NCBI GenBank assembly: GCA_034522055.1
Contig: JAXHLS010000002.1
Location: 372,001 to 436,000 of the forward strand
From: Gammaproteobacteria bacterium
GTDB taxonomy: Bacteria > Pseudomonadota > Gammaproteobacteria > JAABTG01
Length of the DNA stretch: 64,000 nucleotides
Reading direction: 5' to 3'
Position numbers and translations under genes: made by a program. Position 1 is the first letter of the stretch, and the number at the start of each line of letters is the position of its first letter. The notes beneath the pieces are model-generated. The model saw only the letters and a program-made list of their open reading frames with translations, was not told the DNA's origin and made no database searches. Of this stretch, positions 808 through 53,691 are shown in pieces.

Positions 808-925
808 GGTGAAGCTCCTGCCCTGTCATGAGTGGGTATGGTGGGAGAAGGTGGCGGGACCATGACGTCACCGGTGAAAAGCCGTTCGCAGGGCGACGCG
901 GCCCCGCCCATCCGCGGCCGTGGAT

Positions 926-1984: not shown

Positions 1985-2100
1985 TCTACCCTCCTTCGCC
2001 GCCCCCCCTGGTGGAGGGGATGTCAGGGGGCAAAGGATACTGGAAAGACAACCCGGCGTGGGTACCGGCCCGGCGTCGGTGCCTGCGGCGGGGTGTGAAT

Positions 2101-2275
2101 GTCGGGATGAATCCCGACCTACATTCGTGCCCCGGGAACGTGCCGTGGTGGTGTATCTGGCCGGAATGTCGGGATGAATCCCGACCTACATTCGTGCCCC
2201 GGGAACGTGCGGTGGTGATGTATCTGGCCGGGGTGTCGGGATGAATCCCGACCTACATTCGTGCCCCGGGAACGG
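2101..2275. repeat. 67-bp tandem repeat with REP-like palindrome (3 copies)
   Basis: The palindrome GTCGGGATGAATCCCGAC occurs at 2101, 2168 and 2235, exactly 67 bp apart. Each copy continues with CTACATTCGTGCCCCGGGAAC; the third is cut short before the next gene. The interval 1985-2354 otherwise shows nothing coding. Related single copies lie at 35864 and 36556, so this is a dispersed REP-like element that has been tandemly amplified here. Confidence 0.85.
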
Positions 2276-2354
2276 GCGGTTATTGATATCGTGAGGCACT
2301 TTGGCTGCCGTATGATGTCAAGGCTATGCAATGCCGTCGGCCAAGGAGAATTTC

Positions 2355-3647: not shown

Positions 3648-3681
3648 AGGCCGCCACCGGCCGGCGGCGCGGCGGTAAGCC

Positions 3682-6600
3682 ATGGACAAGGTCATCCAGT
3701 GGTCGGTGCACAACCGTTTCCTGGTGCTGCTGGCCACCATCATCCTCACCGCCTGGGGGCTGCTGTCCCTGCGGGAGACGCCGCTCGACGCCATTCCCGA
3801 CCTGTCGGACGTCCAGGTCATCGTGCGCACCACCTTCCCGGGCCAGGCCCCGCGGGTGGTGGAGGAGCAGGTCACCTACCCCATCACCACCACCATGCTG
3901 GCGGTGCCGGGGGCCCAGACGGTGCGCGGCTATTCCTTCTTCGGCGACTCCTTCGTCTACGTCATCTTCGAGGACGGCACCGACATCTACTGGGCCCGCT
4001 CGCGGGTCCTGGAGTACCTGAACCAGGCGGCCGCGGATCTGCCGGAGGGGGTGGCGCCGCGCCTCGGCCCCGATGCCACCGGGGTGGGCTGGGTGTACAG
4101 CTATGCCCTCACCGACCCCACCGGGACCCACGATCTCGCCGAGCTGCGCAGCCTCCAGGACTGGTTCCTCAAGCTGGAGCTGCAGACGGTCCCGGGGGTG
4201 GCCGAGGTGGCCACCGTGGGGGGCATGGTGCGCCAGTACCAGGTGGTGGCGGATCCGGAGAAGCTGCGGGCCTATGGCATTCCTCTGCGGCGCCTCGACG
4301 AGGCCATCCGCAACGCCAACCGCGAGGTGGGGGGCTCGGTGGTGGAGCTGGCGGAGGCGGAATACATGGTGCGCACCCGCGGCTACATCCAGTCCCTGGA
4401 GGACATCGAACACATCCCCGTGGGCATCGATCCCCGGGGCGTGCCCATCCTGCTCCGTGAGCTGGCCACGGTGCAGGTGGGGCCGGAGATGCGCCGCGTG
4501 GTGGCGGACCTCGACGGCGAGGGGGAGATCACCGGCGGCATCGTGGTGATGCGCTACGGCGAGAACGCCCTGGCCACCATCGCCGCCGTCAAGGAAAAGC
4601 TGGAAGAGCTGGCGGCAGGGCTGCCGGCGGGGGTGGAGATCGTCCCCACCTATGACCGCTCCGAACTGATCCTGGACGCGGTGGACAACCTCCAGAGCAA
4701 GCTGGTGGAGGAGTTCATCGTCGTGGCCCTGGTGTGCCTGGTATTCCTGTTCCACCTGCGCTCGGCCTTCGTGGCCATCGTCACCCTGCCCCTCGGGGTG
4801 CTGGCCGCCTTCGTGGTCATGCGTTACCAGGGCATCAACGCCAACATCATGTCCCTCGGCGGCATCGCCATCGCCATCGCCATCGGCGCCATGGTAGACG
4901 CCGCCATCGTCATGATCGAGAACGCCCACAAGCACCTGGAACGCTATCGCCAGACCTTCGGCCACGCGCCCCGTGGCGAGGAACACTGGCGGGTGGTGAC
5001 CCGCGCCGCCACCGAGGTGGGGCCGGCCCTGTTCTTCTCCCTCCTCATCATCACCCTGAGCTTCCTGCCGGTGTTCACCCTCGAGGCCCAGGAGGGGCGC
5101 CTGTTCGCGCCCCTGGCCTACACCAAGACCTATGCCATGGCCGCCTCCGCAGGCCTAGCGGTGACCCTGGTGCCGGTGCTCATGGGTTACTTCATCCGCG
5201 GTCGCATCCCACGGGAGGAGACCAATCCCCTGAATCGCCTGCTGGTGTGGCTGTACCGGCCCCTGCTGCGGGTGGTACTGGCGGCCCCCCGCACCACCAT
5301 CGCCGTATCCGCCCTGCTGTTCGCCACCCTGCTGGTGCCCCTGTATGGCGTGGGCGGCCTGCTGGAGCCCCTGAAGTGGCCCTTCCAGGCCGCCTCCCTG
5401 GCGGCCCCCGGCACCGGCGACCGAGCGGTCACCACCATCGAGGGCTGGCAGGCCGGCCTCACCGACGGCTGGCGCACCGCCACCCGCGGCGTGCCCGTGG
5501 TGGCGGACTGGCACGAGGGCCTCGGTTCGGAGTTCATGCCGGAACTCTTCGAGGGCGATCTCATGTACATGCCCACCACCCTGCCCGGCCTGTCCATCGG
5601 CAAGGCTCGGGAACTGCTGCAACAGACCGACCGCATCATCGCCAGCCTGCCCGAGGTGGAGCGGGTGTTCGGCAAGGTGGGGCGCGCCGACACCGCCACG
5701 GATCCGGCGCCCCTGACCATGATCGAGACCGTGATCCAGCTCCGGCCCCGATCCGAGTGGCGCCCCGGCCTGACGGTGGACGGCCTCATCGAGGAACTGG
5801 ACCGCAAGGTGGATTTCCCCGGCGTCACCAACGCCTGGGTGATGCCCATCAAGACCCGCATCGACATGCTGGCCACGGGCATCAAGACCCCCGTGGGCAT
5901 CAAGATCGCCGGCCCCGACCTCAAGGAGATCCAGCGCCTCGGCCAGGCGGTGGAGCGGACCGTGCTGCAGGTGCCGGGCACCGCCTCGGCCTTCTCCGAA
6001 CGGGTGGCGGGGGGGCGCTACATCGAGATCCGCCCCCACCGCCTGGAGGCCGCCCGGGTGGGCCTCAACGTGGAGGACATCAACCGCATGGTGGCGGCCG
6101 CCGTGGGCGGCATCAACATCACCCGCACCGTGGAGGGCCTGGAGCGCTATCCCGTCAACCTGCGCTTCCCGCGGGAGCAGCGGGACGACGTGTATAAACT
6201 CCGGGAGATGCCCATCGTCACCCCCACCGGCGCCCACGTGACCCTGGGCAGCGTCGCCGAGGTGGTCATCACGGACGGCGCTCCCCTGCTGAAGAGCGAG
6301 AACGCGCGCCTCAATGGCTGGACCTTCGTGGACATCCGCGGCCGCGACGTGGGCGGTTACGTGAAAGAGGCCCGGCAGCGGGTGCGCGCGGAGGTGGAAC
6401 TCCCCCCCGGCTACTCCCTCACCTGGTCCGGCCAGTACGAGTACATGCTGCGGGCCCAGGAGAGGCTGGCCCAGGTGGTGCCCTTCACCCTCGCCATCAT
6501 CTTCGTGCTGCTCTACATGATTTTCCGGCGTGCCGCCGAGGCCTGGCTGGTGATGCTGTCCCTGCCCTTCGCCCTGGTGGGGGGCTTCTGGCTCATCTAT

Positions 6601-7026
6601 GTGCTGGGCTACAACCTGTCGGTGGCGGTGGCCGTGGGCTTCATCGCCCTGGCCGGGGTGGCGGCGGAGTTCGGCGTGATAATGCTGGTGTACCTGGACA
6701 ATGCCCTCAAGGACCGCCGCGACATCGGCCGGCTGGGGAGCGAGGACGACCTCAAGGCAGCCATCATGGAGGGCGCGGTGATGCGGGTGCGACCCAAGGC
6801 CATGACCGTGGCCACCATCATCGCCGGCCTGCTGCCCATCATGCTGGGGGCCGGCGCCGGCTCCGAGGTGATGCGGCGCATCGCCGCCCCCATGGTGGGG
6901 GGCATGATCACCGCCCCGCTGCTGAGCCTGTTCGTCATCCCCGCCATCTACCTGCTGTGGCAGCGCCGGCTGCTGGCCCGGGCGGATACGGACACCAATG
7001 CCCACGCCCCCGGCTGGGTGCCGTGA
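3682..7026 (+). CDS. cusA: CusA/CzcA family heavy-metal efflux RND permease
   Basis: This 1114-residue inner-membrane proton-driven pump begins with the hallmark MDKVIQWSVHNRF and carries the HME-RND signatures DAIPDLSDVQVIV and SEFMPELFEGDLMYMPTT. Proton-relay acids are visible in TM4 (D406 in MVDAAIVMIEN, with E413). It is longer than the usual 1020-1050 residues because of about 55-60 extra residues at roughly 554-613, between the second block of membrane segments and the SEFMPEL motif. It is the second gene of a cusBA operon. Substrate choice (Cu/Ag versus Zn/Co/Cd) cannot be fixed from these motifs alone. Confidence 0.9.
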   Translation: MDKVIQWSVHNRFLVLLATIILTAWGLLSLRETPLDAIPDLSDVQVIVRTTFPGQAPRVVEEQVTYPITTTMLAVPGAQTVRGYSFFGDSFVYVIFEDGTDIYWARSRVLEYLNQAAADLPEGVAPRLGPDATGVGWVYSYALTDPTGTHDLAELRSLQDWFLKLELQTVPGVAEVATVGGMVRQYQVVADPEKLRAYGIPLRRLDEAIRNANREVGGSVVELAEAEYMVRTRGYIQSLEDIEHIPVGIDPRGVPILLRELATVQVGPEMRRVVADLDGEGEITGGIVVMRYGENALATIAAVKEKLEELAAGLPAGVEIVPTYDRSELILDAVDNLQSKLVEEFIVVALVCLVFLFHLRSAFVAIVTLPLGVLAAFVVMRYQGINANIMSLGGIAIAIAIGAMVDAAIVMIENAHKHLERYRQTFGHAPRGEEHWRVVTRAATEVGPALFFSLLIITLSFLPVFTLEAQEGRLFAPLAYTKTYAMAASAGLAVTLVPVLMGYFIRGRIPREETNPLNRLLVWLYRPLLRVVLAAPRTTIAVSALLFATLLVPLYGVGGLLEPLKWPFQAASLAAPGTGDRAVTTIEGWQAGLTDGWRTATRGVPVVADWHEGLGSEFMPELFEGDLMYMPTTLPGLSIGKARELLQQTDRIIASLPEVERVFGKVGRADTATDPAPLTMIETVIQLRPRSEWRPGLTVDGLIEELDRKVDFPGVTNAWVMPIKTRIDMLATGIKTPVGIKIAGPDLKEIQRLGQAVERTVLQVPGTASAFSERVAGGRYIEIRPHRLEAARVGLNVEDINRMVAAAVGGINITRTVEGLERYPVNLRFPREQRDDVYKLREMPIVTPTGAHVTLGSVAEVVITDGAPLLKSENARLNGWTFVDIRGRDVGGYVKEARQRVRAEVELPPGYSLTWSGQYEYMLRAQERLAQVVPFTLAIIFVLLYMIFRRAAEAWLVMLSLPFALVGGFWLIYVLGYNLSVAVAVGFIALAGVAAEFGVIMLVYLDNALKDRRDIGRLGSEDDLKAAIMEGAVMRVRPKAMTVATIIAGLLPIMLGAGAGSEVMRRIAAPMVGGMITAPLLSLFVIPAIYLLWQRRLLARADTDTNAHAPGWVP

Positions 7027-7109
7027 AGCACCCCGATCGGAATCATTCCCACCCAGTGCCATCCAGGGTCCGGTGTCGCCTCTTCTACCCTGCCCGCGAC
7101 CATCGGGAC

Positions 7110-9239
7110 TCAGAGCCTTTGGGCGAGGCCGGAAGCGCGGACCACCTGCTGCTCCACGCTGTCGCGCAATACCTGGGCATCGCCGGTGATCAGGCTGAAC
7201 CAGTTTTTCGCCCGGGTGATGGCGGTGTAGATCAGCTCCCGGGTCATTACCGGGCTGAGCCGGTCCGGCAATAGCAGGCTGGTGTGGTTGAACTCCGAGC
7301 CCTGGGATTTGTGCACCGTCATGGCGTACACGGTCTCCAGCTGCTGCAGCCGGCTGGGGGATAACCAGCGAATGTCCCCGGTGCCGTCCCCACTCGGGAA
7401 GGCAACCCGCAGCATGGGTTTCGGCTCACCCGTCCCGGCCTGGTCCCAGGGCACACGGAAGGTGATGCCGATATCCCCGTTCATCAGACCCAGGTTGTAA
7501 TCGTTACCGGTAATGAGCACGGGGCGTCCTTCATACCAGCCTTCGGCCCGGGGAATCAGCCTCTCGCCCAGGAGGCGAAGGGCCACCCGCTCGTTCAGGC
7601 CCTCCACTCCCCAGGGGCCTTTGCGTAAGGCGCAGAGAAGCTGGAAATCGTTGAAGGCCTCCAGGACGTCCCTCGCCAGATCGTCCCAGTCTTGCCGGGG
7701 ACTGTGGGCCGTCAGCTCGTGCTGCTGTATCTTCTCCAGATAGTGCCGATACCCCACCGGCGGCGGCAATGGCCGGTTGTCCACTAGCCGACCCCGGCCG
7801 TGGTTGCTGAAGGCCTCCGGCGTGCCCGTGACGGCATGGCTGCAGACCCGGTCCAGGATATCGCCCGGGACCGGTTTGACCCTGCGACCATTCAGCCACA
7901 TGACATCATCGAAACTACCGTCCCGGCACTGCTGCAATACGGTGGCATCCAGGGTATTGGTATTCACCGCATCCGCCAGCTTGCGGATGCCACTGTCTTC
8001 ACCGAACCGGTAACTCCTGCGCAGCATCGCCACGGCCTGGTCCAGGGGCTGGCCATGGGCGTCGATCAGCGCATCGGGAATCGGCTCACCGATGATCGCC
8101 CGCAGCCAGTGGGCGGTATCCGGGGTGTAGTGGGCGTCCGGCGCCCGCCGGCATAATTCACCCAGGACGGCACCCGCGTCCACCGAGGCCAGTTGGTCCT
8201 TGTCGCCCAGCAGGATCAGGTGGGCATTGGCAGGCAGGGCGTCGAACACCGAGGCCATCAGGTCCACATCCACCATGGAGGCCTCGTCGATCACCAGGAT
8301 ATCCACCAGCAGCGGGTTATCCCGGTCGTGACGGAATCTGCGGGTGTCCGGGTGACTGCCCAGCAGACGATGCAGGGTGGTGACCCGGGTGGGGATGTCA
8401 TCCAGCACCACGTGGCCCGGCAACTCACCCAGGGGCAGACGGCTGGCGGCCCCCCCAATGGACTCGTTCAGCCGCGCAGCGGCCTTGCCGGTGGGTGCGG
8501 CCAGACGAATGCGGTATTTGCGACCGGCCCGTTGCGGGGATTCACCGGCCACGGCCTGCAAGGCCGCCAGCAGCTTCACCACCGTGGTGGTCTTGCCGGT
8601 GCCCGGCCCACCGGTGATCACCGCAAAGCGGTTGCGGGCGGCCAGGGCACAAGCCAGCTTCTGGTAATCCACGCCTTGCTGCGGTTTGAACAAATGCCCC
8701 AGGGCCTCGGCCAAGGTGCGGGCGGGCGCTGATCCAGGATCGGCCAGCGCCGAAGGGAAGGCCAGTCGTTCGCGAATACCCTCGGCGATGCGCTGCTCGT
8801 AGCGCCAGAACCGGCGAAGGTACAGGCGGCTGTCGTTCAACACCAGAGGGGACACAGAAGTGCCGTCAGTCACTGCGAGAGCGTCATCCAGAGCGGACAG
8901 GCAGTCCCGCAGGGAAACGTCGGCCAGCACATCGTCCGGTGTCAGCGGGCCGGGAACCGCAACTTCGGGGAGGATCGGCCTTACCCCTACCTGTTCTTCC
9001 GGTGGCAGCGACAGTGTCTTACCGGCATCCGCCAGCAGGGTCGCCAGATCAATACACACATGACCGCGGCCGACCTGGTGGGACGCCAGCACCGCCAGCA
9101 ACAACAATAACGGCCGCGGGCTATCCCCCTGCGCTTCCGAAAGCGTCCGGACGAGTCGCGCGAAGCCCACATCCAGAGGGCGGACCCATGCCGCCTGCTG
9201 CCAGCCCTCCAGCAGAGCTTCCACCTCGCCCATCCTCAT
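7110..9239 (-). CDS. recD: Exodeoxyribonuclease V subunit alpha (RecD helicase)
   Basis: The product has 709 residues. An N-terminal domain is followed by a superfamily 1 helicase core with Walker A GGPGTGKT at residues 210-217, DEASMVD as motif II, and a C-terminal AMTVHKSQGSEF plus LIYTAITRAK. RecD is the 5'-3' motor of RecBCD, which processes double-strand ends. The ATG overlaps the recB stop by 4 bp, so translation is probably coupled. It is the last gene of the recC-recB-recD operon; no clear hairpin terminator was seen between its end and cusA, which converges on it. Confidence 0.95.
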   Translation of the reverse strand: MRMGEVEALLEGWQQAAWVRPLDVGFARLVRTLSEAQGDSPRPLLLLLAVLASHQVGRGHVCIDLATLLADAGKTLSLPPEEQVGVRPILPEVAVPGPLTPDDVLADVSLRDCLSALDDALAVTDGTSVSPLVLNDSRLYLRRFWRYEQRIAEGIRERLAFPSALADPGSAPARTLAEALGHLFKPQQGVDYQKLACALAARNRFAVITGGPGTGKTTTVVKLLAALQAVAGESPQRAGRKYRIRLAAPTGKAAARLNESIGGAASRLPLGELPGHVVLDDIPTRVTTLHRLLGSHPDTRRFRHDRDNPLLVDILVIDEASMVDVDLMASVFDALPANAHLILLGDKDQLASVDAGAVLGELCRRAPDAHYTPDTAHWLRAIIGEPIPDALIDAHGQPLDQAVAMLRRSYRFGEDSGIRKLADAVNTNTLDATVLQQCRDGSFDDVMWLNGRRVKPVPGDILDRVCSHAVTGTPEAFSNHGRGRLVDNRPLPPPVGYRHYLEKIQQHELTAHSPRQDWDDLARDVLEAFNDFQLLCALRKGPWGVEGLNERVALRLLGERLIPRAEGWYEGRPVLITGNDYNLGLMNGDIGITFRVPWDQAGTGEPKPMLRVAFPSGDGTGDIRWLSPSRLQQLETVYAMTVHKSQGSEFNHTSLLLPDRLSPVMTRELIYTAITRAKNWFSLITGDAQVLRDSVEQQVVRASGLAQRL

Positions 9240-12200
9240 GGGGCCACCCCCCCTTGCCCGGCCTCGCCATCGAACAGGGCGTCCAGCTTCTCGATGAGTT
9301 CCCTCGGAGGTTTGTCCGTGAACGCCCCGGCACTCGGCGCATTGACGCCGCGCAGAAACAGATACACGGCGCCGCCGATATGGCTGTCGTAGTCGTAATC
9401 GGCCAGCCGCGCCTTCAGCAATCGGTGCAGGGCCAGCAGGTAAAGAATGTATTGCAAATCGTAGCGTTCTTTCAGGATCGCCTCGCCCATGGCCCGATGG
9501 GTGTAGGCGTCGTCGCCGGTGCCCAGGGTATTGGATTTGTAGTCCAATACGTAATACCGCCCATGGTGCTCAAACATCAGGTCGATGAAACCCTTGAGCA
9601 TGCCGTTGAAGCGGCGGTCTTCCACCCGGGGCCGGTCGGCGCCGTTGAGAGTGAGTCGTGTGACCCACTCATCCAGGACCCGGGTGCTGACGTTGCAGCT
9701 CTCGAACCAGAATTCCAGTTCCGGGCGCAGGGTGCCCAAGTCCGCCAGGGTGACGGTTTCATCGCCGCCCCGGCCCAGGGGCAGCGGCTTGCCGATCAGC
9801 GCCAGCAACCACTTTTCCAAAGGTACCGCCCATGGATTCCAGCCCCTCGTGCTGCACCGGCGGATGAGCTGTTCGCGTAACTGTGCCGGGTTGTTCATAA
9901 CCTGTTTGAAGCCCTGGCGGGCGCACCATTCCAGCACTTCGTGCAGGAAGGTACCGGGACCGGCGCCCTGGGGAAAATGATGATGGTCGCGGGTGGCCGG
10001 ACTCGAAGGCGTCTCTTCGCCCGCCTGCCTGACACTTTCTTCCAGAATGTTCTGAGTCTCCGCGTCTTCCACTTCCCCGGCGAACACGATACCCGTCCCC
10101 GCCATGCCGGTGTATTCGATGGAGGAGTAACTGGCAATCCACCAGTCTTCCCATGCTTCCCGCTTCGAGTTCAAGGCAGGTCCCAGGGCCTCCGGCATTT
10201 TCTCGAGATAGTGTCCACCGGTGGCTGCCGGCAGCGACGTAATCGCAATGGCCGGGTGTTCCCCCGCCAGTGTGTTCAGGAAATCGCCGACGGGCTGCTG
10301 CTCCCCGCCTTCTCCCCCTATCACGTAGCCCAGGCCACTCAGTTCCCAGTCGTCGATCGCCGCCACACCCACCCAGGCGGCGAACCGGGCGCGTGTCAGG
10401 GCCACATAGAGTTTACGGATATCTTCACCCAGCCGTTCCCGATCTGCCCGCGCCACATCTTCAGGCGTTGGATCAAACACGGTCACCGGCCTGCCGCCGT
10501 CGTCGTGATAGCGCACAAACGCCCGCTTCCCCCTTTCCGCCCGATGGGCGGTGCCGAACGGCAGGAACACCAGCGGGTATTCCAGACCCTTCGATTTATG
10601 CACCGTAATCACCTTCACCAAACCGGCATCACTTTCCAGACGCAGGGTGCGGTGTTCGTCTTCCTCATCCGCCACTCGCAGCATCTGGGTGTAGTGGTGA
10701 ACGAGGGCATGTTCCCCATCCAGTTGCAGGCTGTCCTGCTGGAGCAGTTCGGCAATATGGAGGATGTCCGTCAGCCGGCGCTCGCCATCCGGACGTTGCA
10801 GCAGCCGGCCGGGGACATCGAAATCCATCAGGAAAGTGCGCAGCATGGGCAGCACACCCTGGCGTTGCCACTGCTGCTGGTAACCCATAAAGCGTTCGAT
10901 CTCCCGCTCCAGGGCGATCTCATCGGCCAGCAACCGGTCCAGAGACTGCCAGGACTGCCCCAGCGTCGGCGTGGCCAGCGCGGCTCGCGCGTAGGCCAGT
11001 TGGCGAGGTTCGGCGAAGGCCTTGATCCAGTAAAGCACTTCTTTCGCTTCCTGGGACGTCAGCACGGAATCCCGGTCAGACAGGTACACGCTCTTGATAC
11101 GCCGCCGCCCGAGAGCATCCCGCACCGCACTGGCTTCAACGCGGTTGTTGACCAGAACCGCGACGTCCCCGGGTGCGAGAGGCTGAATATCCGACCCGTT
11201 GTGCGCCACCACGAACCCGGCCTTTCGTTGCTGCCCGAGGGTCAGCAGCCGAGTGATCTCGCTGGCACAGGCTTCGGCCACCTCGCTGGTCGCGGCGCCT
11301 TTGGCCAGCCTCTTGCTGTTGCCGGCGCTGTCTTCTGCCTCGGATTCCAGGGCCCAGAAGGTGAGGCTGGGCCCGACCTGCCCATTCACCGACCATGACC
11401 GTTCGGTGCCATTGGCGTCCACGGCACGGAACGGCAGTGCCGAGGTATCGCCCTTGCCAAACAGGAAGGCGCCGTCACGGCCGCTTTTATCGCCATGCTC
11501 GAACACCCGATTGACCGCCTTCACCATGGGTTCTGCGGATCGGAAATTGCGGCCCAGGGTGTAGGTACGCCCCAGGGCGCCCTTGCGGGCTTCCAGGTAG
11601 GTGTGGATATCGGCGCCCCGGAAGCCGTAGATGGCCTGCTTCGGGTCACCGATCATCAGCATGCAGGTATCAGGATCGTTGTCCGCCACCCGGTAGATGC
11701 GGTTGAAAATCCGGTACTGTACCGGGTCCGTATCCTGGAACTCGTCGATCAGCGCCACCGGGAACTGGCGGCGGATGGTCACTGCCAGTTGATCACCCCG
11801 GGAGCCGTGCAGGGCGTCATCCAGGCGGGTAAGCAGATCGTCGAAGCCCATTTCCGAGCGTTTATGTTTTTCCGATTCCAGACGCCGGGCGACCCAATGG
11901 CTGGCATGCCTGAGGATATCAGCCTCGGCGCCGGGCAGGTTCTCGCTGAATGCGACCAGTTCGGCAATGGCGTCGAAGGCGGCATGGTGTGGCGCCGGGC
12001 CCTCAACCTTGAGGGTCTTCTTCAGACCCGCCGGCGTCTGGTTCTTGAAACCGGCTTTGTCCAGACCCTCGGGAAGGAGTTCGTCCGATTCGGCCCATGA
12101 CGACAGTATGTCCCAGACCTTGCGCATCGCATTCCTGCTATTACCGTGCAGGCGTCGCGCGGCGTGAAGTTCGTCGAGCAGTTCCAGGACTTCGCTTTTC

Positions 12201-12955
12201 CAGGCCCTCCAGTCATTGGCTTTCAATGCCCGCGCCCGTTCCAGGCGCTCATCGAGCGTCCGCTCGATGGCCTGTTTCACATCTCCGACGGTCACTTCCA
12301 GGCTGTCCGCAAGCGGAATCAGGTTGCGTACCGCGTTGCCCAGGTCGTCCGGCGTCGTCCAGTGGCAGAGGACTTCATCCATCAACACGGGAGGCAGGGG
12401 ATAGATAAAGGTACGCCAGTAATCCCGCACCACTTCGTCCAGCAGATCCCTATGGTCGGTTTCCAGGGTGAGTTTGAACAGACTGCCGCTGTCGAAGGCA
12501 TGCTCGCCGAGCATGCGGTTACACCAGGCGTGGATGGTGGATACGGCGGCCTCATCCATCCACTCGGCGGCCAGCAACAACTTCTTACGACAATCCGGCC
12601 AGGTACCCCGATCCGGGTAGCCCTCGTCCCGCAATCGGAAGATCAGCCGGGTATCCGGCGAGGGCTCGAGGCCATCGATGTTCCCGGAGAAGACCTCGGC
12701 GGCCTGGGTCAACCGTGTGCGGATGCGATCCCGCAGCTCCTTGGTGGCGGCATCCGTGAAGGTCACGACCAGCAGGTTCGGCGGCAATATGCCCCCGGCC
12801 AGCGGGCTGTCGGGCGGCTGGCCGTGGCCCAATACCAGACGCACGTACAGAATGGCGATGGTGAAGGTCTTGCCGGTGCCGGCGCTGGCTTCAATCAGGG
12901 TGCTGCCGTTGAGGGGCAACGTTAAGGGGTCGAGGCTCGGGTTCACATCGTTCAT
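9236..12955 (-). CDS. recB: Exodeoxyribonuclease V subunit beta (RecB helicase-nuclease)
   Basis: This 1239-residue protein is the 3'-5' helicase and only nuclease of RecBCD. Walker A (EASAGTGKT, residues 22-31) lies at the N-terminus, LIDEFQDTD marks motif II, and ITVHKSKGLEYPLVF lies in the second helicase half. The C-terminal nuclease domain has FIDLMFEH followed by VLDYKSN near residue 1135, the Asp/Lys pair of the RecB nuclease active site, so the enzyme looks intact. It overlaps recC by 4 bp upstream and recD by 4 bp downstream. Confidence 0.96.
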   Translation of the reverse strand: MNDVNPSLDPLTLPLNGSTLIEASAGTGKTFTIAILYVRLVLGHGQPPDSPLAGGILPPNLLVVTFTDAATKELRDRIRTRLTQAAEVFSGNIDGLEPSPDTRLIFRLRDEGYPDRGTWPDCRKKLLLAAEWMDEAAVSTIHAWCNRMLGEHAFDSGSLFKLTLETDHRDLLDEVVRDYWRTFIYPLPPVLMDEVLCHWTTPDDLGNAVRNLIPLADSLEVTVGDVKQAIERTLDERLERARALKANDWRAWKSEVLELLDELHAARRLHGNSRNAMRKVWDILSSWAESDELLPEGLDKAGFKNQTPAGLKKTLKVEGPAPHHAAFDAIAELVAFSENLPGAEADILRHASHWVARRLESEKHKRSEMGFDDLLTRLDDALHGSRGDQLAVTIRRQFPVALIDEFQDTDPVQYRIFNRIYRVADNDPDTCMLMIGDPKQAIYGFRGADIHTYLEARKGALGRTYTLGRNFRSAEPMVKAVNRVFEHGDKSGRDGAFLFGKGDTSALPFRAVDANGTERSWSVNGQVGPSLTFWALESEAEDSAGNSKRLAKGAATSEVAEACASEITRLLTLGQQRKAGFVVAHNGSDIQPLAPGDVAVLVNNRVEASAVRDALGRRRIKSVYLSDRDSVLTSQEAKEVLYWIKAFAEPRQLAYARAALATPTLGQSWQSLDRLLADEIALEREIERFMGYQQQWQRQGVLPMLRTFLMDFDVPGRLLQRPDGERRLTDILHIAELLQQDSLQLDGEHALVHHYTQMLRVADEEDEHRTLRLESDAGLVKVITVHKSKGLEYPLVFLPFGTAHRAERGKRAFVRYHDDGGRPVTVFDPTPEDVARADRERLGEDIRKLYVALTRARFAAWVGVAAIDDWELSGLGYVIGGEGGEQQPVGDFLNTLAGEHPAIAITSLPAATGGHYLEKMPEALGPALNSKREAWEDWWIASYSSIEYTGMAGTGIVFAGEVEDAETQNILEESVRQAGEETPSSPATRDHHHFPQGAGPGTFLHEVLEWCARQGFKQVMNNPAQLREQLIRRCSTRGWNPWAVPLEKWLLALIGKPLPLGRGGDETVTLADLGTLRPELEFWFESCNVSTRVLDEWVTRLTLNGADRPRVEDRRFNGMLKGFIDLMFEHHGRYYVLDYKSNTLGTGDDAYTHRAMGEAILKERYDLQYILYLLALHRLLKARLADYDYDSHIGGAVYLFLRGVNAPSAGAFTDKPPRELIEKLDALFDGEAGQGGVAP

Positions 12956-15900
12956 GCCGTGGCCTCAATCTGTTCGGCGGCGGACTTATCCTGCTCGGCC
13001 TCCCACAGTGGCACATAGAGTGAATGCAGTAACGCCTCGAACTCACCGCCGGCCGTCAGTAAGTCCGCACGCTCGAAGGCCCCCCTCAGGTAACCGGCAT
13101 CGCGTTCCAATGCCGTGGTGTAGGCCTGTTCGGCATCGCTGATGGCCCGCTCATGCTGACCGCGAAACTTCCTGCTCTGGTAGAAACTGTAAATCCAGGC
13201 AAAGCCGGCATTACAGTGCAGGGGCAGGGGCCGGGTGGTGGCGTCCATCCAGTGGGCGACAATCGCTTCGAGATGGATCCGGGCCCGTTCCCGGCCCAGG
13301 GACGCGAAGCGGAAACTGCGCCCCTCTTCCTTGGCCAGAATCAGGGTCTCGAAGGGTTGCCCCGTGAGCTGCCCGGCCACATGGATCACCCAGTCCCGCA
13401 TCAGGTTGGCATAGCGCACTTTCCTGGCCGAGCCGGAGCCGGACAGCAAACCGGAACGCGCCACAACCAGGCGGCACCACCGGCCGTCGGAGTTGCGACG
13501 CAGGCCGTCAATCAGATCCACGACCTCCACCGAACTACCGTCATGGTTGAAACGGCATTCGAAGGGCAACGGCTCGCTGACTACTTCCGGCCAGGCCGCC
13601 AGGGCGCTCCGGTAGCGCTCGAACAGATCCGGCAGCCGGGCCGATAGATCGCTGCGCAGGCGGTGCTCGGTGACGCCCATGCCGAGCTCACCCCGCCGGG
13701 CCATGCGGTCCAGAGTGGCCTCCAGCCGTTCGCGCAAGTCTTCTTCGGAAGCGGCTTTCAGCAGGCCGTCCCGAATCAGTTCGTCATCCAACCGCCAGCG
13801 ATCCAGACCGGAGAGGTCAAAGTTTTCGTTGTCGGCGTCCTTGTCCTCCACATCCTCGAAGCGCACCTGCAGGCGGCGCTGGTAGAAGGTGTCTATGGGC
13901 TTTTTAAGGAACGCCGCCAGGTCATTCAGGGTGAGGGGTTCCTCGGGCTCCCGGTAGGCCAAGGGGCGCCGTTCCCGATGCGGCGCCTCGATACCATGGG
14001 CGCTGCGCCATTCCCGCTCGTAGGTGAACAGGCTACGGGCCTGGAGCACTTCGGCCACAGGTCTGGGTGGACTGTTCTCGCCTTGTTCCAGTCCATTGGC
14101 CTTGGGAAAGTACTCGCGGCTGAAGGGCTGCAGCGGATGCCGGGTGGTCAGGGCTCCGGTGACGGTCGTATCGGCCGTGCCGTCAACCTGCCACAGGCTG
14201 TCCAGATGATCCCGCAACTGGCCCACCAGCACCGACGGAGGGCGCGCGGAATCGTCCTTGATACTGCGCCCCACCCAGCTGATGTAAAGCTGTTCCCGCG
14301 CCGATAACAGGGCTTCCAGGAACAGGTACCGGTCGTCTTCCCGGCGGGAACGATCCCCGGGCCGATAATCCCGGGCCATCAGATCGAAATCCACCGGCGG
14401 CCGGGAGCGGGGGTAGTCACCGTCGTTCATGCCCAGCAGGCACACCATGCGGAAGGGGATCGCCCGCATCGGCATCAGGGTGGCGAAATTTACCTTGCCG
14501 GCCAGGAAACGCTGGTTGAGGCCGCCATCGTCCAGGCCTTCAAGCAGCACGTCCTTGACGATATTCAGGGGCAGGGTCCGGTCTTTCAGGCCGGCCGCCA
14601 GGGCATCGTCCAGCCACTGTTCCAACTGGCGACGGAAGCGGTTGAGGAGGAGCAAATCACTGCCGGTGACCTGGTGAAAAAACCGCGCCAGCATGGCCGA
14701 GAAAAGGATCTCCCATTCCCCCGGGGTGCGGGCTGTTTGCAGCGCCTGCCACAGGGCTTCCAGGCGCTCCACGAACTCGCCGAGGCGGCCGGCAAGACTG
14801 GCCTCAAGCCCGGCGATCTCGCCGTAAGGCTGCACACCGGCCCACGGTGCGTCATCCCCCATGCCGTAACCCAGGAGCATGGAACGCAGGCCCGCTTGCC
14901 AGGTATTGCGCTCGAGCCCTGCGGGCAGTCCCAGGCTTTCCCGGTGCCGGCCGTGCAGGCCCCAGCGGATGTTGGCGCCTTCCACCCAGCGCCGGGCCAG
15001 GGGGATTTCTTGTTCGGCAATATCGAAACGGTCGCGAATCCCCGGCACCTCCAGCAGGCTGATGATCTCGCTCACGCCGAAGCGGCTGCGAGGCAGGGAC
15101 ATGAGGGTTTCCAGGGCGATCAGCACCGGTTCGTGGTGGCGCTGACCCTGGTCGGCGAGGGTGAACGGGATATGGCGCCTGCGCCCGGGCTGGTAACGGC
15201 CGAACACCGCCTGGATATGAGGGGCGTAAACGTTGATATCCGGCACCATGACCATGACATCCCGGGGCCGCAACGTCGGATCGGCATTGAAGGCGGCCAG
15301 TAACCGGTCGTGGAGGATTTCCATCTCGCGCTGGGGGCTGTGGGCATCGTGGAACGCCAGGGAGTGGTCCCGTACAAGATCCAGGCGGCGGTTCTCGGCC
15401 CGGATGTCCCGCAGGGGTGTCAGGTTGTAGATGTCGTTCTGCAACTGGTGCAGCACAGAGGGGGCTTCACCGGCGCCGTGCTCCGAGAAGATGTCGATCT
15501 TCTGGTCCGGGATCCGGAAGCTGCCCCGATACTGGTCCGGGTCATCGAATTCGTCCAGCAGGCGAATGTAATCCCGCCCCTGTTTGCCCCAGGCTGCCAG
15601 CAACGGATTGGCGTGCTGGTGCAGCTGGTCCGGATCGGCAATCCGCGAGAGCGTGGGGTGGGCGGCGCCGCGCTTGCGTTCGGCCTTCAGTAACTCCCGG
15701 TCGCTGATGATGTCCGCCCAATAAAACTGGCAGGGGTTATGGACACACAGCACCACCTGGCTGAAACGGCTGAGTACGTACAGGGCTTCCAGGGCCTGCC
15801 GGGGCAGCGAGGACACGCCGAACACCACGATGCGCCGGGGCAGCCGGGAGGGATTGGCCGGCACACGGATACGCTGGCCTGCGGCCATGAATCGGGTATG

Positions 15901-35320: not shown

Positions 35321-35848
35321 ATGGCAGCGGCCGAGGACAGACAAACCCGCAACGGCGGCCTCGCCCGCGGCGGCCTCATCGGCATCCTCCTGGTGGCCGC
35401 CGCCGGAGCCTTCCTGGGCATGGGCCTGTTCATGTTCAACATGGGCAACGACATGAGCACCATGACCGGCGCCGTGACCCAGATGGGCCGCGATGTCGGC
35501 AGCATGGCGCGGGACATGGGAGAGATGACCGGGCGCATGCAGGTCATGGCCGACAGCATGGTGGAGGGCCAAGCCGGCATGTCCGATGACCTGCACCAGG
35601 TCAGGCTCGGCATGGAACGCATGGCCGGCAACATGCACACCATGAGCCGGGACATGCACCAGTTGAACGGCAACATCGCCGGCATGAGCGGCAACATCGG
35701 CACCATGACCGAGAACATCGCTACCATGAACGCCAACATGGCCCAGATGAACCAGTCCATGGCCAGCATGAACGCCTCCATGGGCCGGATGGGCTACGAC
35801 ATCAACAAGTTCACCCGCCCCGAGAGCCTGATGCCCTTCATGCGCTGA
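35321..35848 (+). CDS. Methionine-rich single-pass membrane protein with heptad-like repeats
   Basis: The product has 175 residues and a strong AAGGAG site. One membrane helix (about residues 18-41) is followed by a long segment in which Met recurs every three to four residues, as in GNIAGMSGNIGTMTENIATMNANMAQMNQ; I count 30 Met in 175. The spacing predicts a long alpha-helix or coiled coil in the periplasm (orientation by the positive-inside rule). The function is unknown. Met-rich surfaces can bind Cu(I)/Ag(I), and a Cus pump lies elsewhere in the window, but no link is shown. Confidence 0.75.
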   Translation: MAAAEDRQTRNGGLARGGLIGILLVAAAGAFLGMGLFMFNMGNDMSTMTGAVTQMGRDVGSMARDMGEMTGRMQVMADSMVEGQAGMSDDLHQVRLGMERMAGNMHTMSRDMHQLNGNIAGMSGNIGTMTENIATMNANMAQMNQSMASMNASMGRMGYDINKFTRPESLMPFMR

Positions 35849-36586: not shown

Positions 36587-37804
36587 TCAGATCTCGCGGA
36601 TGCCGTCGGAGGGTTCGATGCCGGCCGCCCGGAAGCCGCCCAGCAGGGCCGCCATGACGGCGGCCACCAGGGTGATACCCAGGGCCCAGGCGTAATGCTC
36701 CGGTAGCAGCAGGCAGATGGTGTCGCGGGTGGCCATCTGGGCCGCCAGCATGCGGTTGATGGTCTCCTGCACCACCACGTAGATGAGGGAGCCGAGGGCC
36801 CAGCCCAGCACGCCGGTGAACAGCGACTGGAGCAAGGGGAAGCCGATGATGGAGCCGGTGCGGAAACCCACCAGACGCAGGATGCTGAGTTCCCGGCGCT
36901 TGCGGTCCACGTTGGCCCACAGGCTCGCCCCCAGGGACAGAGAGAAGCCCACCAGCCCCACCACCGCCACCACCCAGAACAGCAGGGAGAGGTTACGGTC
37001 GATGGCCTGAACGCTCTCGATCTCGGCGGCGTTGGTACGCACCTCCATGCCGGCGGCCTCGAGGGCGTCGCGCAGCCCGGCCACGTCGCCGATGGCGGCG
37101 GCGTAGAGGCGGTAGCTCGGATAGCGCCGCTCCTCGCCCACCGCCGGATCGCCATCCCAGCCCAGCGCCGCCACCCGGCGACCGTCGCGGAAATCCTCCA
37201 TGGCGGTGACGAAGGGCACGGCTACGAAGGCGCCATCCCGGCCGAAGGCCGTGGCCGGGGCGACGGCCGTCACTTCCACTTCCAGGGTCTCGCGCTCCCG
37301 CTGGCCGCGGAAACGGCGGCTCACGCTGGCCCTGACGGTATCCCCCGGCCCCACCTCCAACTGGCGCGCCGCGGCGGCCGAGAGCACCGCCTGGTGGAAA
37401 CCCGTGGGGGCCGCGGTGCCCGAGGGCAGCAGGGGATCGCCGGGCCCCGAGGGGATCAGCTCCACGTCGATGATGCGCCCGGCCTGCTCGCTGTGGACCT
37501 TGATGGTGGAGGCCAGGGAGCGCGTCTCGGGCACCAGGAAACCGACATCGGGGCGGGCAGCCATGGTGTCGAACCAGGCAGGGGTGAAGCGGCCGCTGCC
37601 GACGTTGCGGATCTCGCGGTTGTGGGGGTTCTGCACCAGGTCCTCGACCATGTGGGTGACGATGCCGAACTTGAGGCCGAACAGCACCATCATGGGCCCC
37701 AGCACCGCCGCCAGGGCGAGGATGAAGCAGGTGGACATGCGCCACTCGTGGACGTAGTCCCGCAGGGCCAGATAAAGGATATTGCCGAGCTGGGTGCGTG
37801 CCAT
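36587..37804 (-). CDS. ABC transporter permease (FtsX/MacB/LolC-like)
   Basis: This 405-residue inner-membrane protein has one N-terminal membrane helix (ALAAVLGPMMVLFGLKFG), a large periplasmic domain (about residues 50-265) and three C-terminal helices, with the FtsX signature around RKRRELSILRLVGFRTGSIIGF. Its start shares a TGATG with the ATPase stop, so the two are translationally coupled. FtsX-like permeases transmit mechanical force rather than importing solutes. It is the last gene of the Sel1/VWA/ABC operon. Confidence 0.87.
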   Translation of the reverse strand: MARTQLGNILYLALRDYVHEWRMSTCFILALAAVLGPMMVLFGLKFGIVTHMVEDLVQNPHNREIRNVGSGRFTPAWFDTMAARPDVGFLVPETRSLASTIKVHSEQAGRIIDVELIPSGPGDPLLPSGTAAPTGFHQAVLSAAAARQLEVGPGDTVRASVSRRFRGQRERETLEVEVTAVAPATAFGRDGAFVAVPFVTAMEDFRDGRRVAALGWDGDPAVGEERRYPSYRLYAAAIGDVAGLRDALEAAGMEVRTNAAEIESVQAIDRNLSLLFWVVAVVGLVGFSLSLGASLWANVDRKRRELSILRLVGFRTGSIIGFPLLQSLFTGVLGWALGSLIYVVVQETINRMLAAQMATRDTICLLLPEHYAWALGITLVAAVMAALLGGFRAAGIEPSDGIREI

Positions 37805-38526
37805 CAGTCGCTGAACACCGATTCGGTGACGTTGTCCGCCTTCTGGCGGGTGTGGTGGGTCAGCTTGCGCAGGTCCAGGCGGTCCACCTGGGCCCAGTCG
37901 TGGCTGGCCACCAGCACCGTCATGCCGAGGTTCTCCACCAACCCCATGAACAGGCGCATGATGCGCCGCCCGGTGATGGGGTCGAGCGACGCCGTGGGCT
38001 CGTCGGCGATCACCACGCTGGGCTCGTGGGCCAGGGCGCGGGCGATGGCCACCCGCTGGCGCTCGCCCGCCGACAGCAGGCCGGGCAGCTTGTCCAGGTG
38101 GCCCTCGATGCCCATGCCCTCGGCCAGGCGGCGGGTACTCTCGCCTTCCGACAGCCCCTGGAGGCGCCGCGACAGGGCGATGTTGTCCCGCACCGTCAGG
38201 TAGGGCAACAGGCCGCCGGTCTGCAGTACGTAGCCGATATGGCGCTTGCGCAGGTCACTGAGGCGGTTGCGTTTGTTCTTCTTCCACAACCACTGCACGT
38301 CCTGCTCGGCGCTGTCCCGGGGAGTGAAGAGAAACTCCTCGGCCTCGTTGGGCTGCAGCACCATGGCCAGCAGGTCCAGCAGGGTACTCTTGCCACAACC
38401 GCTCTGGCCCACCATGGCCACCCGCTCACCGGGCTGGATGCTGAGTTCCGGCACCACCAGGCGGAAGGTGGACGACTGGGTCGTGCGGGTCTTGACCACC
38501 TCCCGCAGGCGATAGACCGGCGGCAT
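37804..38526 (-). CDS. ABC transporter ATP-binding protein (LolD/MacB-like)
   Basis: The product has 240 residues. Walker A GQSGCGKST (residues 40-48), signature LSAGERQRVAIARAL and Walker B SVVIADEPTASLD are intact. About 20 extra residues (TPRDSAEQDVQWLWKKNKRN) lie before the Q-loop region (HIGYVLQTGGLLPYLTV), a place where LolD normally is compact. It begins immediately after the VWA-protein gene and overlaps the permease gene. It energises the FtsX-like permease. Confidence 0.9.
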   Translation of the reverse strand: MPPVYRLREVVKTRTTQSSTFRLVVPELSIQPGERVAMVGQSGCGKSTLLDLLAMVLQPNEAEEFLFTPRDSAEQDVQWLWKKNKRNRLSDLRKRHIGYVLQTGGLLPYLTVRDNIALSRRLQGLSEGESTRRLAEGMGIEGHLDKLPGLLSAGERQRVAIARALAHEPSVVIADEPTASLDPITGRRIMRLFMGLVENLGMTVLVASHDWAQVDRLDLRKLTHHTRQKADNVTESVFSD

Positions 38527-40494
38527 TCAGGGCAGAAGCTCCAGGGCCACCGGAAACACCGAGTCGCCGGTGACGGCACCGCCGTCCAGGGACACCCACA
38601 GATCGGTGTTGTCGTGCAGCGCGGTGTAGTAGTTGATCTTGGCCTCGATGCGGTGGATGAACTCGATCTGCTCCCGGGCGGGCCACTCGGCCCAGTCGTC
38701 CAGGGAGACGTTCATCACCTCGCCGGTATAGGGCAGGTCCTCGATGTATTCGCGCATGTAGCCCAGATCCGCCAGGTTCTGGCCACCGGCCCCCGCCACC
38801 CGGGTGCTGCCCGGGGCGGCGGAGGGATCGCGGGACAGGCTCGCCGCCACGCTCTTGAGGTCGTTGATGAAACCACCGGGGGACAGCAGGCCTTCCTCGG
38901 CGGCCTGGAGGACGCGGCGCAACACATCCTGCATGTCGCTCAACTGGTCGCGGGTCAGCAGCACCCGCACGTCCACGGTCTGCACGTCGGGGTTCTCGAA
39001 GTCGCGGTCCACCAGCCAGGCGTCGAACACCGTGGGGGCCTGTACGCCCTGGCGTTTCTGCAGATAACGCATGCGCAGGGCATAGCCCAGGGTCTCCACC
39101 TTCTGCTGCAGGCGCGCGAGTTCACTGGCCTGCCTGGCCACCGGAGTGGTGGCGGGCACCGGCGAGGCCCCCGCTAAGGTCTTGCGTACCTGCTCGGTGA
39201 GCTGGATGGCGAGGGCCTCCAGCACGTCGCCGAACTCGTCCACGTCCCCCATGCCCACGCCGTAGTAGAAATCGCCGATGCCGGGATAGGTGGAGAGCAC
39301 GCGGTACTCGCGCTCCGCCGCGGCGTGGTCCCGGGCACCCTGAGGCGTCAGCAGGTGCATGACCCAGATGGCCACGCCCTTGTCCTGGGCCAGCTGGCGC
39401 AGGGCCCGGGTATCGAGGCCGGTGGCCGAGAGGGGGTCGCCACCGCTGCGCGGCCCGGCGTCGGTGACCAGGATGATGAAGCGTGCGTCGAAGTCCCGCC
39501 AGTCCATGTCCTCGATGGCACGCTTGATACCCGCGTAGGCATCCTCCTTGAAATCTTTGCTGGAGACCTCGGCCGGCTCCATCTCCGCCACCCGCTCGAA
39601 GAAGGTATCCGCCGCCAGTCCGCTCCGCAGATCGGCGAACTCGCGGGTGAGATAGCCGAGTTCGGGACGCACCGCCACGTTGTCGCGATAGGCGATGAGG
39701 CCGAAGCTCACCTGATTCTCCAGCTCGGCGACCTCGATGGCATCGTAGACGCCGCGCACCACTTCGCGGGTGCGGTCGATGTAGGGTCCCATGGACACCG
39801 TCGAGTCGATGACGAACACCACCCCGGAGCGGTAGTCGCGGGCCGGGGCGGCGGCCTCCTTCTCTTCCAGGGTTTTCGACTCTTCCAGGGGCACCGAGGC
39901 CACCTTGAGCATGCGCGCCTGGCGGTCTCCCAGGAACACGTCCTCGTGGTCGAGTATGGGCACCAGATAGAAATTCTCCTGGATGTCGAGGTTGGCACTG
40001 GGCTGGATGGCCGCCACCGGGGAATCCGGCCCGATCTCGCCCGCCACCGCCTCGTCATAGAGGGCCCGGTAGGTCTCCAGGTCGCGGCTGTCCACCAGCG
40101 CCTTGAGGGACTCGCGGTCGCTGAACAGCATCACCCGATCCCGGCCCAGGGGCTCGCGGAAGGCCACGGTCAGGGACTGCTGCCACTCGATGACCTGGTC
40201 CTCCGCCAGCCAGCCGAGGTTCTGGCCGTGGCTGTCGGTCCCCACCCGCACCCAGGGTGCGCCCCCCAGTTCCTGCCGCTCGTAGACATAGAGGGCGGTG
40301 AAGGGCACTACGGCGCGGGCCGCGCCGGTCGTGGACGGCTCGTCGTAGAGCACGCTGCCGGGACGGGCCACCACCCGCTGGTACAGGCTCTGCTTGCCCG
40401 GCACCAGCAGGGGCTCAGCCGCCATCACCTCGGACGGGGCGCCCGCCAGCAGCACCAGCAGCGCAACGACGATGCGAAAATATGGATACACCAT
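38527..40494 (-). CDS. Exported SH3-like/VWA-domain protein (PpkA C-terminal-like)
   Basis: I place the start at 40494 (MVYPYFRIVVALLVLL), behind AAAGGA; the ATG at 40518 overlapping the previous stop (ATGA) is an alternative. The product has 655 residues with a signal peptide ending at about A26. An SH3-like segment (45-105, ...VRVGTDSHGQNLGWLAEDQ) is followed by a VWA domain whose MIDAS reads D230-STVS with TDAG and conserved acids later. The composition recalls the C-terminal part of PpkA-type kinases, but no kinase domain is present. It lies between a Sel1 protein and an ABC pair. Confidence 0.8.
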   Translation of the reverse strand: MVYPYFRIVVALLVLLAGAPSEVMAAEPLLVPGKQSLYQRVVARPGSVLYDEPSTTGAARAVVPFTALYVYERQELGGAPWVRVGTDSHGQNLGWLAEDQVIEWQQSLTVAFREPLGRDRVMLFSDRESLKALVDSRDLETYRALYDEAVAGEIGPDSPVAAIQPSANLDIQENFYLVPILDHEDVFLGDRQARMLKVASVPLEESKTLEEKEAAAPARDYRSGVVFVIDSTVSMGPYIDRTREVVRGVYDAIEVAELENQVSFGLIAYRDNVAVRPELGYLTREFADLRSGLAADTFFERVAEMEPAEVSSKDFKEDAYAGIKRAIEDMDWRDFDARFIILVTDAGPRSGGDPLSATGLDTRALRQLAQDKGVAIWVMHLLTPQGARDHAAAEREYRVLSTYPGIGDFYYGVGMGDVDEFGDVLEALAIQLTEQVRKTLAGASPVPATTPVARQASELARLQQKVETLGYALRMRYLQKRQGVQAPTVFDAWLVDRDFENPDVQTVDVRVLLTRDQLSDMQDVLRRVLQAAEEGLLSPGGFINDLKSVAASLSRDPSAAPGSTRVAGAGGQNLADLGYMREYIEDLPYTGEVMNVSLDDWAEWPAREQIEFIHRIEAKINYYTALHDNTDLWVSLDGGAVTGDSVFPVALELLP

Positions 40495-40514
40495 GATCGG
40501 GGTCCTTTGCAGTC

Positions 40515-41090
40515 TCATTGCCATATCAGCAGCAACTGACGGGCCTCGGGGTCGCCGCGGGCCGCCGCGTCCTCGGCCCACCCCCGCAGGTTCGCCAGAT
40601 AGTCCTCGGCGATGGCGGAGCCGGCATCGGCGGCGACGCGGTACCACTTGAGGGCCTGGGCCGCGATGGGCTCGTCCACCAGGGACTGGGGATCATCCGG
40701 CCCCGTGGGATCGTACATGCGCCCCAGCATCAGCGCCGCGGCGGGATCACCCTTGCGGGCGCCATAGAAATACAGCAGGTAGGCATCGGCCAGGTGGCCC
40801 TGGGCCTGGAGTTCCCGCGCCTTGGCGAAGATGGCGTCCAGGTCCTCTTCCGATTCGCCGGCCCGCAACCGGGCGATGATGGCGCGCGCCTGGTCACCCC
40901 GCTCCCGGGCCCCGGGGTCTTCGGCCGGCGGGGTTGGCTCCGCCTCGGGGACCGGCGGCACCTCGACCATCTCCGTGGCATCGTCCCGCGTCTGCACGTA
41001 GACCAGCGCCGCCGCCAGGATCACCACGATGACGGCCACCAGGATACGCGCACCGCGACGTGACTCCTGGGTCTCGGATTGGTTATTCAT
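40515..41090 (-). CDS. Membrane-anchored Sel1-repeat protein
   Basis: The product has 191 residues. A short cytoplasmic N-terminus precedes one membrane helix (about residues 14-33), then a Pro/Glu-rich linker and Sel1-like alpha-helical repeats (HLADAYLLYFYGARKGDPAAALMLGRMYDP, AAQALKWYRVAADAGSAIAEDYL). Its stop overlaps a possible start of the VWA gene. As first gene of the operon it may recruit or organise the VWA protein and the ABC complex; this is inference from order only. Confidence 0.78.
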   Translation of the reverse strand: MNNQSETQESRRGARILVAVIVVILAAALVYVQTRDDATEMVEVPPVPEAEPTPPAEDPGARERGDQARAIIARLRAGESEEDLDAIFAKARELQAQGHLADAYLLYFYGARKGDPAAALMLGRMYDPTGPDDPQSLVDEPIAAQALKWYRVAADAGSAIAEDYLANLRGWAEDAAARGDPEARQLLLIWQ

Positions 41091-53116: not shown

Positions 53117-53691
53117 GGCGCAGGCGGGACAATCACGGGCAACGCCGCTTCATCCATGGCCTTTTCCATGGCCTGGCGGATCAGTTCGAGTTCGCGGCGC
53201 GGCGGCCGATAGCCCTCCTGGGTCGAGGCCTTAATCCATCTGACCGCCTCGGCGCTGTCGCGCCGCACACCGAGGCCGAGGGCATACATCTCCCCGAGGT
53301 AGAATCGCGCCGGCGCGTAGCCCGCCTCCGCGGCCTCGCGCATCAGCGGCAGGGCCCGCCCCGCGTCGTGCTCCCCCCCGAGACCCTTGAGGTGCATATA
53401 GGCCAGTTTGAACTTGGCCTTGACCATGCCGCCCCGTGCCGCCCTGCCGAACCACACCCGCGCGGCCGGACGATCCACCACCACTCCCCGGCCCTTGAGC
53501 AGCATATCCCCGACGTGATACTGGGCCCCTGCGTCGCCGGCTTCGGCCCGCACCAGGCGCTCATGGAAGTGCGCCTGCAGCCGATAGTCCACCTCGGCCC
53601 GGGCGCTCACCACGGCCATGAGCAAGGCACACGCCAGGGCAGGGAGCCACCGCCGCCACGGTGTCCTACACTCGTATACGACCCGCTGCAT
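53107..53691 (-). CDS. Exported Sel1-repeat protein
   Basis: The product has 194 residues with a signal peptide (cleavage after ARA, about residue 32). It contains Sel1-type repeats (QYHVGDMLLKGRGVVVDRPAARVWFGRAAR, AKFKLAYMHLKGLGGEHDAGRALPLMREAAEAG, APARFYLGEMYALGLGVRRDSAEAVRWIKAS), so it is a periplasmic protein-interaction scaffold. Partners are unknown. It diverges from the CPXCG gene. Confidence 0.83.
   Translation of the reverse strand: MQRVVYECRTPWRRWLPALACALLMAVVSARAEVDYRLQAHFHERLVRAEAGDAGAQYHVGDMLLKGRGVVVDRPAARVWFGRAARGGMVKAKFKLAYMHLKGLGGEHDAGRALPLMREAAEAGYAPARFYLGEMYALGLGVRRDSAEAVRWIKASTQEGYRPPRRELELIRQAMEKAMDEAALPVIVPPAPQD

Follow-up and report, generated by a model that had tools for sequence, protein, structure and literature searches.

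What kind of system is encoded by an operon in which a membrane-anchored Sel1-like protein and an exported VWA protein are placed directly before an ABC ATPase and an FtsX-like permease? The operon lies in a stretch of gammaproteobacterial DNA of 64,000 nucleotides, here called the window (Table 1). A sequence-only reading had described four tightly packed minus-strand genes, with a TGATG where the ABC genes meet and a Sel1 stop that overlaps a possible VWA start; this layout is borne out, in that the Sel1 stop and the VWA start share an ATGA, the ATPase gene starts at the base directly after the VWA stop, and the ATPase and permease genes overlap in the TGATG. Pfam matches in the window proteins were to VWA (E-value 4.3e-6), ABC_tran (9.9e-28) and FtsX (2.7e-10). 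The nearest relative, locus L001, encodes proteins 84-95% identical to the four of the window, and comparison of the two loci gave for each of the four genes a dN of 0.03-0.08, a dS of 0.25-0.37 and a dN/dS of 0.11-0.23: these low ratios indicate that all four are genes under purifying selection.

Table 1. Coordinates of the four genes of the operon, of two further open reading frames of the window, and of features at related loci.
Feature	Sequence	Position	Strand	Remarks
TM-anchored Sel1-like periplasmic protein	window	41090-40515	minus	191 aa
Exported VWA protein	window	40518-38527	minus	663 aa; alternative ATG at 40494
TagT-like ABC ATPase	window	38526-37804	minus	240 aa
TagS-like FtsX-domain permease	window	37804-36587	minus	405 aa
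Met-rich, coiled-coil-like membrane protein	window	35321-35848	plus	175 aa; weak likeness to DUF1664
Further Sel1-repeat ORF	window (G000:C2:425212-425526)	53212-53526	minus	three Sel1 matches
Operon with srfABC	L071 (NZ_CP102995.1)	659-14971
Locus with SUMF1-Sel1 fusion	L060 (G093)	4521-10759
Second, divergent module	L064 (G002)	1531-12217
Second, divergent module	L065 (G003)	1-11809
Penicillin-insensitive murein endopeptidase	L046	7345-8196		Peptidase_M74
Penicillin-insensitive murein endopeptidase	L063	10251-11144		same cluster as in L046
Penicillin-insensitive murein endopeptidase	L066	10299-11192		same cluster as in L046

Co-occurrence of the four genes in relatives had been put forward as a check on the sequence-only reading, and it is confirmed. 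A search of 369 genomes of the class with the VWA protein found 20 genomes – about 5% of those sampled – with close homologues of the window's type (identity ~50-88%, the window itself excepted); together with genome G003 these make up 21 stand-alone hosts from nine families. The order TM-Sel1 protein, VWA protein, ABC ATPase, FtsX-like permease is kept in all 19 intact loci, a count that leaves aside two further loci cut by contig ends, and intergenic gaps are mostly below 130 bases (one is 943). Comparison of the neighbourhoods revealed no fifth gene common to most stand-alone loci and none conserved after the permease; at three loci a penicillin-insensitive murein endopeptidase adjoins the Sel1 gene. 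In the tree of VWA proteins 22 stand-alone sequences and one truncated locus form a single group (SH-aLRT 99), and a near-identical group appears in the FtsX tree (98) and in the ATPase tree (96, with one extra unclassified row), all three being unrooted quick searches with some long branches that do not polarise ancestral and derived states. The beginning of the same operon is also present on a 3.2 kb, low-coverage contig of a Desulfobacterales MAG (L002) that nests among sequences of the window's class in the VWA tree, and which may reflect a binning error or a transfer.

A central issue is the identity of the ABC pair. That it is of the FtsX type, as had been read from the letters, is confirmed by the Pfam matches and by the topology of the permease, which has four TM segments and a periplasmic domain of ~220 residues between TM1 and TM2; the ATPase carries Walker A (GQSGCGKST), signature (LSAGERQ) and Walker B (VVIADEP) motifs. 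The more familiar members of this type were tried and rejected: scores were 139.5 for FtsE (cut-off 264.85) and 16.8 for FtsX_Gneg (255), and 126.5 for LolD (307.75) and 26.4 for LolCE (362.45). The permease is 40% identical over 97% of its length to the permease of a type VI secretion (T6SS) cluster from Tistrella, and ATPase and permease, co-aligned and co-treed with proteins of TagT/TagS type, are homologues of TagT and TagS.

The VWA protein points to the same pathway. It comprises a signal peptide, an N-terminal beta-rich (SH3-like) region, a VWA domain with a D-x-T-x-S motif of MIDAS type, and a conserved C-terminal region. The sequence-only reading had already remarked on a likeness to the C-terminal portion of PpkA, and this proved to be an end-to-end alignment with the periplasmic half of fused PpkA; indeed, whatever their context, VWA proteins can be aligned over a stretch that begins near residue 28 (A1 numbering) and runs to the final residue. 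Because the whole exported length aligns across settings, the window protein amounts to a free-standing PpkA periplasmic part. No NCBIfam model matched this protein, a PDB profile search with the VWA family gave no match, and AlphaFold2 predictions reached a pLDDT of 44 for the VWA protein (from only 3 sequences) and of 40 for the permease (from only 2), too poor to judge fold or contacts.

The TagQRST-PpkA pathway of P. aeruginosa detects damage to the outer membrane within seconds, whereupon PpkA is activated, probably via dimerisation (PMC11881912); TagS and TagT make up an ABC unit of the inner membrane that has ATPase activity (PMC6657622), and the extracytoplasmic VWA domain of PpkA has been proposed as the sensor (PMC3224232). 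The trio of VWA protein, ATPase and permease occurs on plasmids in two settings, T6SS and srf, with VWA proteins 38-41% identical to that of the window. The T6SS cluster on pTM1 of Tistrella mobilis runs tssK-icmH-tssM-tagF-PP2C-kinase-vWA-ABC ATPase-FtsX permease-SUMF1-hypothetical-vgrG. A profile search of the phylum produced more T6SS and srf cases, including five Pseudomonadaceae-like T6SS loci that encode kinase, TM segment and VWA domain as a single polypeptide (of 992 and 1164 aa at the two loci where it was read completely) and in which the order is TssM, PP2C, kinase-VWA, ATPase, permease, SUMF1. This order evidently matches the PpkA-TagT-TagS-TagR arrangement; the kinship of the hosts to Pseudomonas we infer.

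For the first gene of the operon the Sel1 label is weak: PF08238 is not matched at E<1 in the window protein, and the label rests on relatives, two of which match at 0.0006-0.003. The protein has a short cytoplasmic tail, one TM segment (residues 14-32) and a periplasmic Sel1-like region. The split kinase of Tistrella ends in just such a TM segment and Sel1-like tail, and a 'YDP' motif is present in both (MYDP in the window, FYDP in the kinase tail). When a profile of 22 Sel1-like sequences was compared with this kinase tail, the match had a probability of 96.6% (E 5.8e-10); for the TM proteins encoded ahead of the VWA gene in srf operons it was 89-98.6%, as against only 43-50% for two unrelated Sel1 proteins of the window's own genome. 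Left out of the comparison were two of the four Sel1 controls (L114, L119) and L057, all three of which proved to be unrelated reading frames. In fused, Pseudomonas-type PpkA the TM segment is present and the Sel1-like tail absent. Since the profile matches both the Tistrella tail and the srf TM proteins, the most fitting reading of the operon's first gene is that of a membrane-anchor subunit without a cytoplasmic head, to all appearances the counterpart of the TM segment and periplasmic tail of the split T6SS kinase, with the kinase missing. A possible intermediate form is found at L060, where a SUMF1-Sel1 fusion follows the permease and a separate Sel1 protein precedes the VWA gene; no kinase, T6SS or Srf gene was found in its surroundings.

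The srf setting is exemplified by plasmids of Klebsiella and Leclercia that carry srfB-srfC, a hypothetical TM protein, the VWA-ATPase-permease trio and a SUMF1 protein; for Klebsiella, matches to the VWA protein occur in 114 plasmid records, of which one, L071, was read. Its arrangement comprises srfABC, a TM-Sel1-like protein, a VWA protein, a TagTS-like pair and SUMF1. TagQRST/PpkA genes beside srfABC, without a T6SS, were reported in 2013 from host-associated Deltaproteobacteria (PMC3608642).

Stand-alone loci lack most of what accompanies the trio in these settings. Of the 21 hosts, 17 have no VipB, the sheath gene of the T6SS, and the window genome (98% complete) is one of these; the remaining four carry it on other contigs than the module. 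SrfB was found in none of the 21 hosts and SUMF1 at none of the stand-alone loci, and 19 hosts, the window genome included, are without a full-length homologue of TagR. Only G002 and G003 have one, in each case adjoining a second, divergent copy of the module. This second copy, seen in the window's family, encodes a TPR protein, a VWA protein (29-34% identity), a large NHL-repeat protein (L064), an ABC ATPase, a permease with an insertion within its periplasmic domain, and SUMF1.

Overall, the best explanation, to which we give a probability of about 0.72, is that the operon constitutes a stand-alone, kinase-less version of the TagT-TagS-PpkA core of the T6SS damage response, one that would use ATP hydrolysis to act on VWA and Sel1 proteins in the periplasm. 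Its identity as a kinase-less TagTS-PpkA core is, judging by homology and gene order, very probable; the envelope mechanism proposed for the ABC unit and its VWA/Sel1 partners draws on analogy and is tentative. In Pseudomonas, machinery of this kind responds to outer-membrane damage by triggering the T6SS. The window locus has no T6SS, no switch kinase and no outer-membrane sensor parts, so that here the core probably serves some other purpose by itself, one of envelope sensing or upkeep – a role that we infer from the T6SS pathway.

Mechanotransmission is the working mode of FtsX-type ABC units (PMC5985334, PMC11491553). By the mechanism that we propose, permease and ATPase, whose topology and motifs fit such a role, would be an ABC unit of type VII (LolCDE/MacB/FtsEX-like), and the VWA protein would be anchored next to the permease by the Sel1 protein; cytoplasmic ATP binding and hydrolysis would be coupled to a change of conformation of the periplasmic VWA/Sel1 complex, driven or read by the ABC unit. 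Action of the permease on the VWA protein, for which the Sel1 protein would be adaptor or anchor, may reasonably be supposed, helped by the covalent TM-VWA fusion of PpkA. The VWA protein may bind an envelope ligand via its intact MIDAS-type motif, and were it to do so the unit would sense or mend envelope damage rather than transport a solute. As there is no cytoplasmic output domain, work from inside to outside appears likelier than signalling of the kinase type.

The output could nonetheless lie in trans: the operon might sense envelope damage, with the Sel1 cytoplasmic tail or the ATPase contacting a kinase or regulator that is encoded elsewhere. In T6SS this core does activate a kinase, four hosts have a T6SS elsewhere in the genome, and Pkinase matches occur elsewhere in 20 of the 21 hosts, with six in the window genome. 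But this is doubtful given that no stand-alone locus has a Ser/Thr kinase fused to or beside the VWA gene, that the cytoplasmic tails are short and without a kinase domain, and that at 1e-10 there is no Pkinase match in one of the hosts, G256, whose genome is 97% complete. Another notion is that of a decaying remnant of a lost T6SS, to which the missing sheath of the window genome lends some colour; purifying selection on all four genes, intact ATPase motifs, and one deep group that keeps the same order across nine families make it hardly credible, and we reject it.

Other explanations take the ABC pair itself as the guide. Transport of a lipoprotein, peptide or lipid by a unit akin to LolCDE or MacB, with the VWA and Sel1 proteins as periplasmic acceptor, would fit the ABC superfamily and the shared topology of four TM segments, the first two of which are separated by a large periplasmic domain; it is unlikely in light of scores far under the curated LolD, LolCE and FtsE cut-offs, of TagT/TagS as the closest kin found, and of a locus with no gene for an outer-membrane channel or adaptor. 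Control of a peptidoglycan hydrolase in the manner of FtsEX is suggested by the FtsX-domain permease and by the Peptidase_M74 murein endopeptidase that adjoins the operon in three loci, but these are only three of ~20, from two families and in differing orientation, and with the FtsE/FtsX equivalog cut-offs not reached this explanation is improbable.

The sequence-only reading knew of no described system with this set of genes. This was too broad in one respect, in that three of the four genes correspond to the described TagST-PpkA core of T6SS and the Sel1 gene to the tail of a split kinase; what stands is that we did not find the exact kinase-less, T6SS-less set of four described. A literature search, conducted mostly outside subscription papers, gave no account of a kinase-less Sel1-VWA-TagT-TagS form, and the stand-alone form – with no kinase, TagR, TagQ-like, T6SS or Srf gene at the locus – appears to be new. 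A widespread minimal form, free of kinase and T6SS, means that the ABC-VWA step can be studied alone and in harmless hosts. Such a form suggests, too, that the core which senses damage can be reused as a module and is more than an accessory of T6SS, and it makes sense of the TM-Sel1 protein encoded ahead of the VWA gene in srf operons. More speculatively, TM-Sel1, VWA, TagT and TagS might comprise a general envelope-sensing and actuating machine with a swappable cytoplasmic head, which would be a kinase in the case of T6SS, a different domain in that of srf operons, and absent here. If true, T6SS and Srf systems would be users of a general machine whose basic envelope job is shown by the stand-alone form.

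It remains to set the operon beside known systems. With the type VII units FtsEX, LolCDE and MacB it has in common an ABC ATPase and an FtsX-domain permease with a large periplasmic domain, but the window pair falls below all curated family cut-offs, and its partners are VWA and Sel1 proteins in place of EnvC, lipoproteins or TolC/MacA. The srfABC-associated TagTS/vWA/SUMF1 operons, often found without a T6SS, are closer, and show the same order of TM-Sel1-like protein, VWA protein, ABC ATPase and FtsX permease; the window differs in having no SrfB/SrfC and no SUMF1 protein, and its Sel1 protein is without the extra N-terminal cytoplasmic domain of the srf-operon counterpart. Compared with TagQRST-PpkA-PppA, as found in the H1-T6SS of P. 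aeruginosa and on pTM1 of Tistrella, the window locus is without the kinase domain, PppA, TagR (SUMF1), a TagQ-like gene and T6SS genes, and its VWA protein is a free exported protein, unlike that of fused PpkA. What the two have in common is the VWA periplasmic part, the TagT-like ATPase, the TagS-like permease and the order of the genes, and, in the split form of Tistrella, the TM anchor with its Sel1-like tail.
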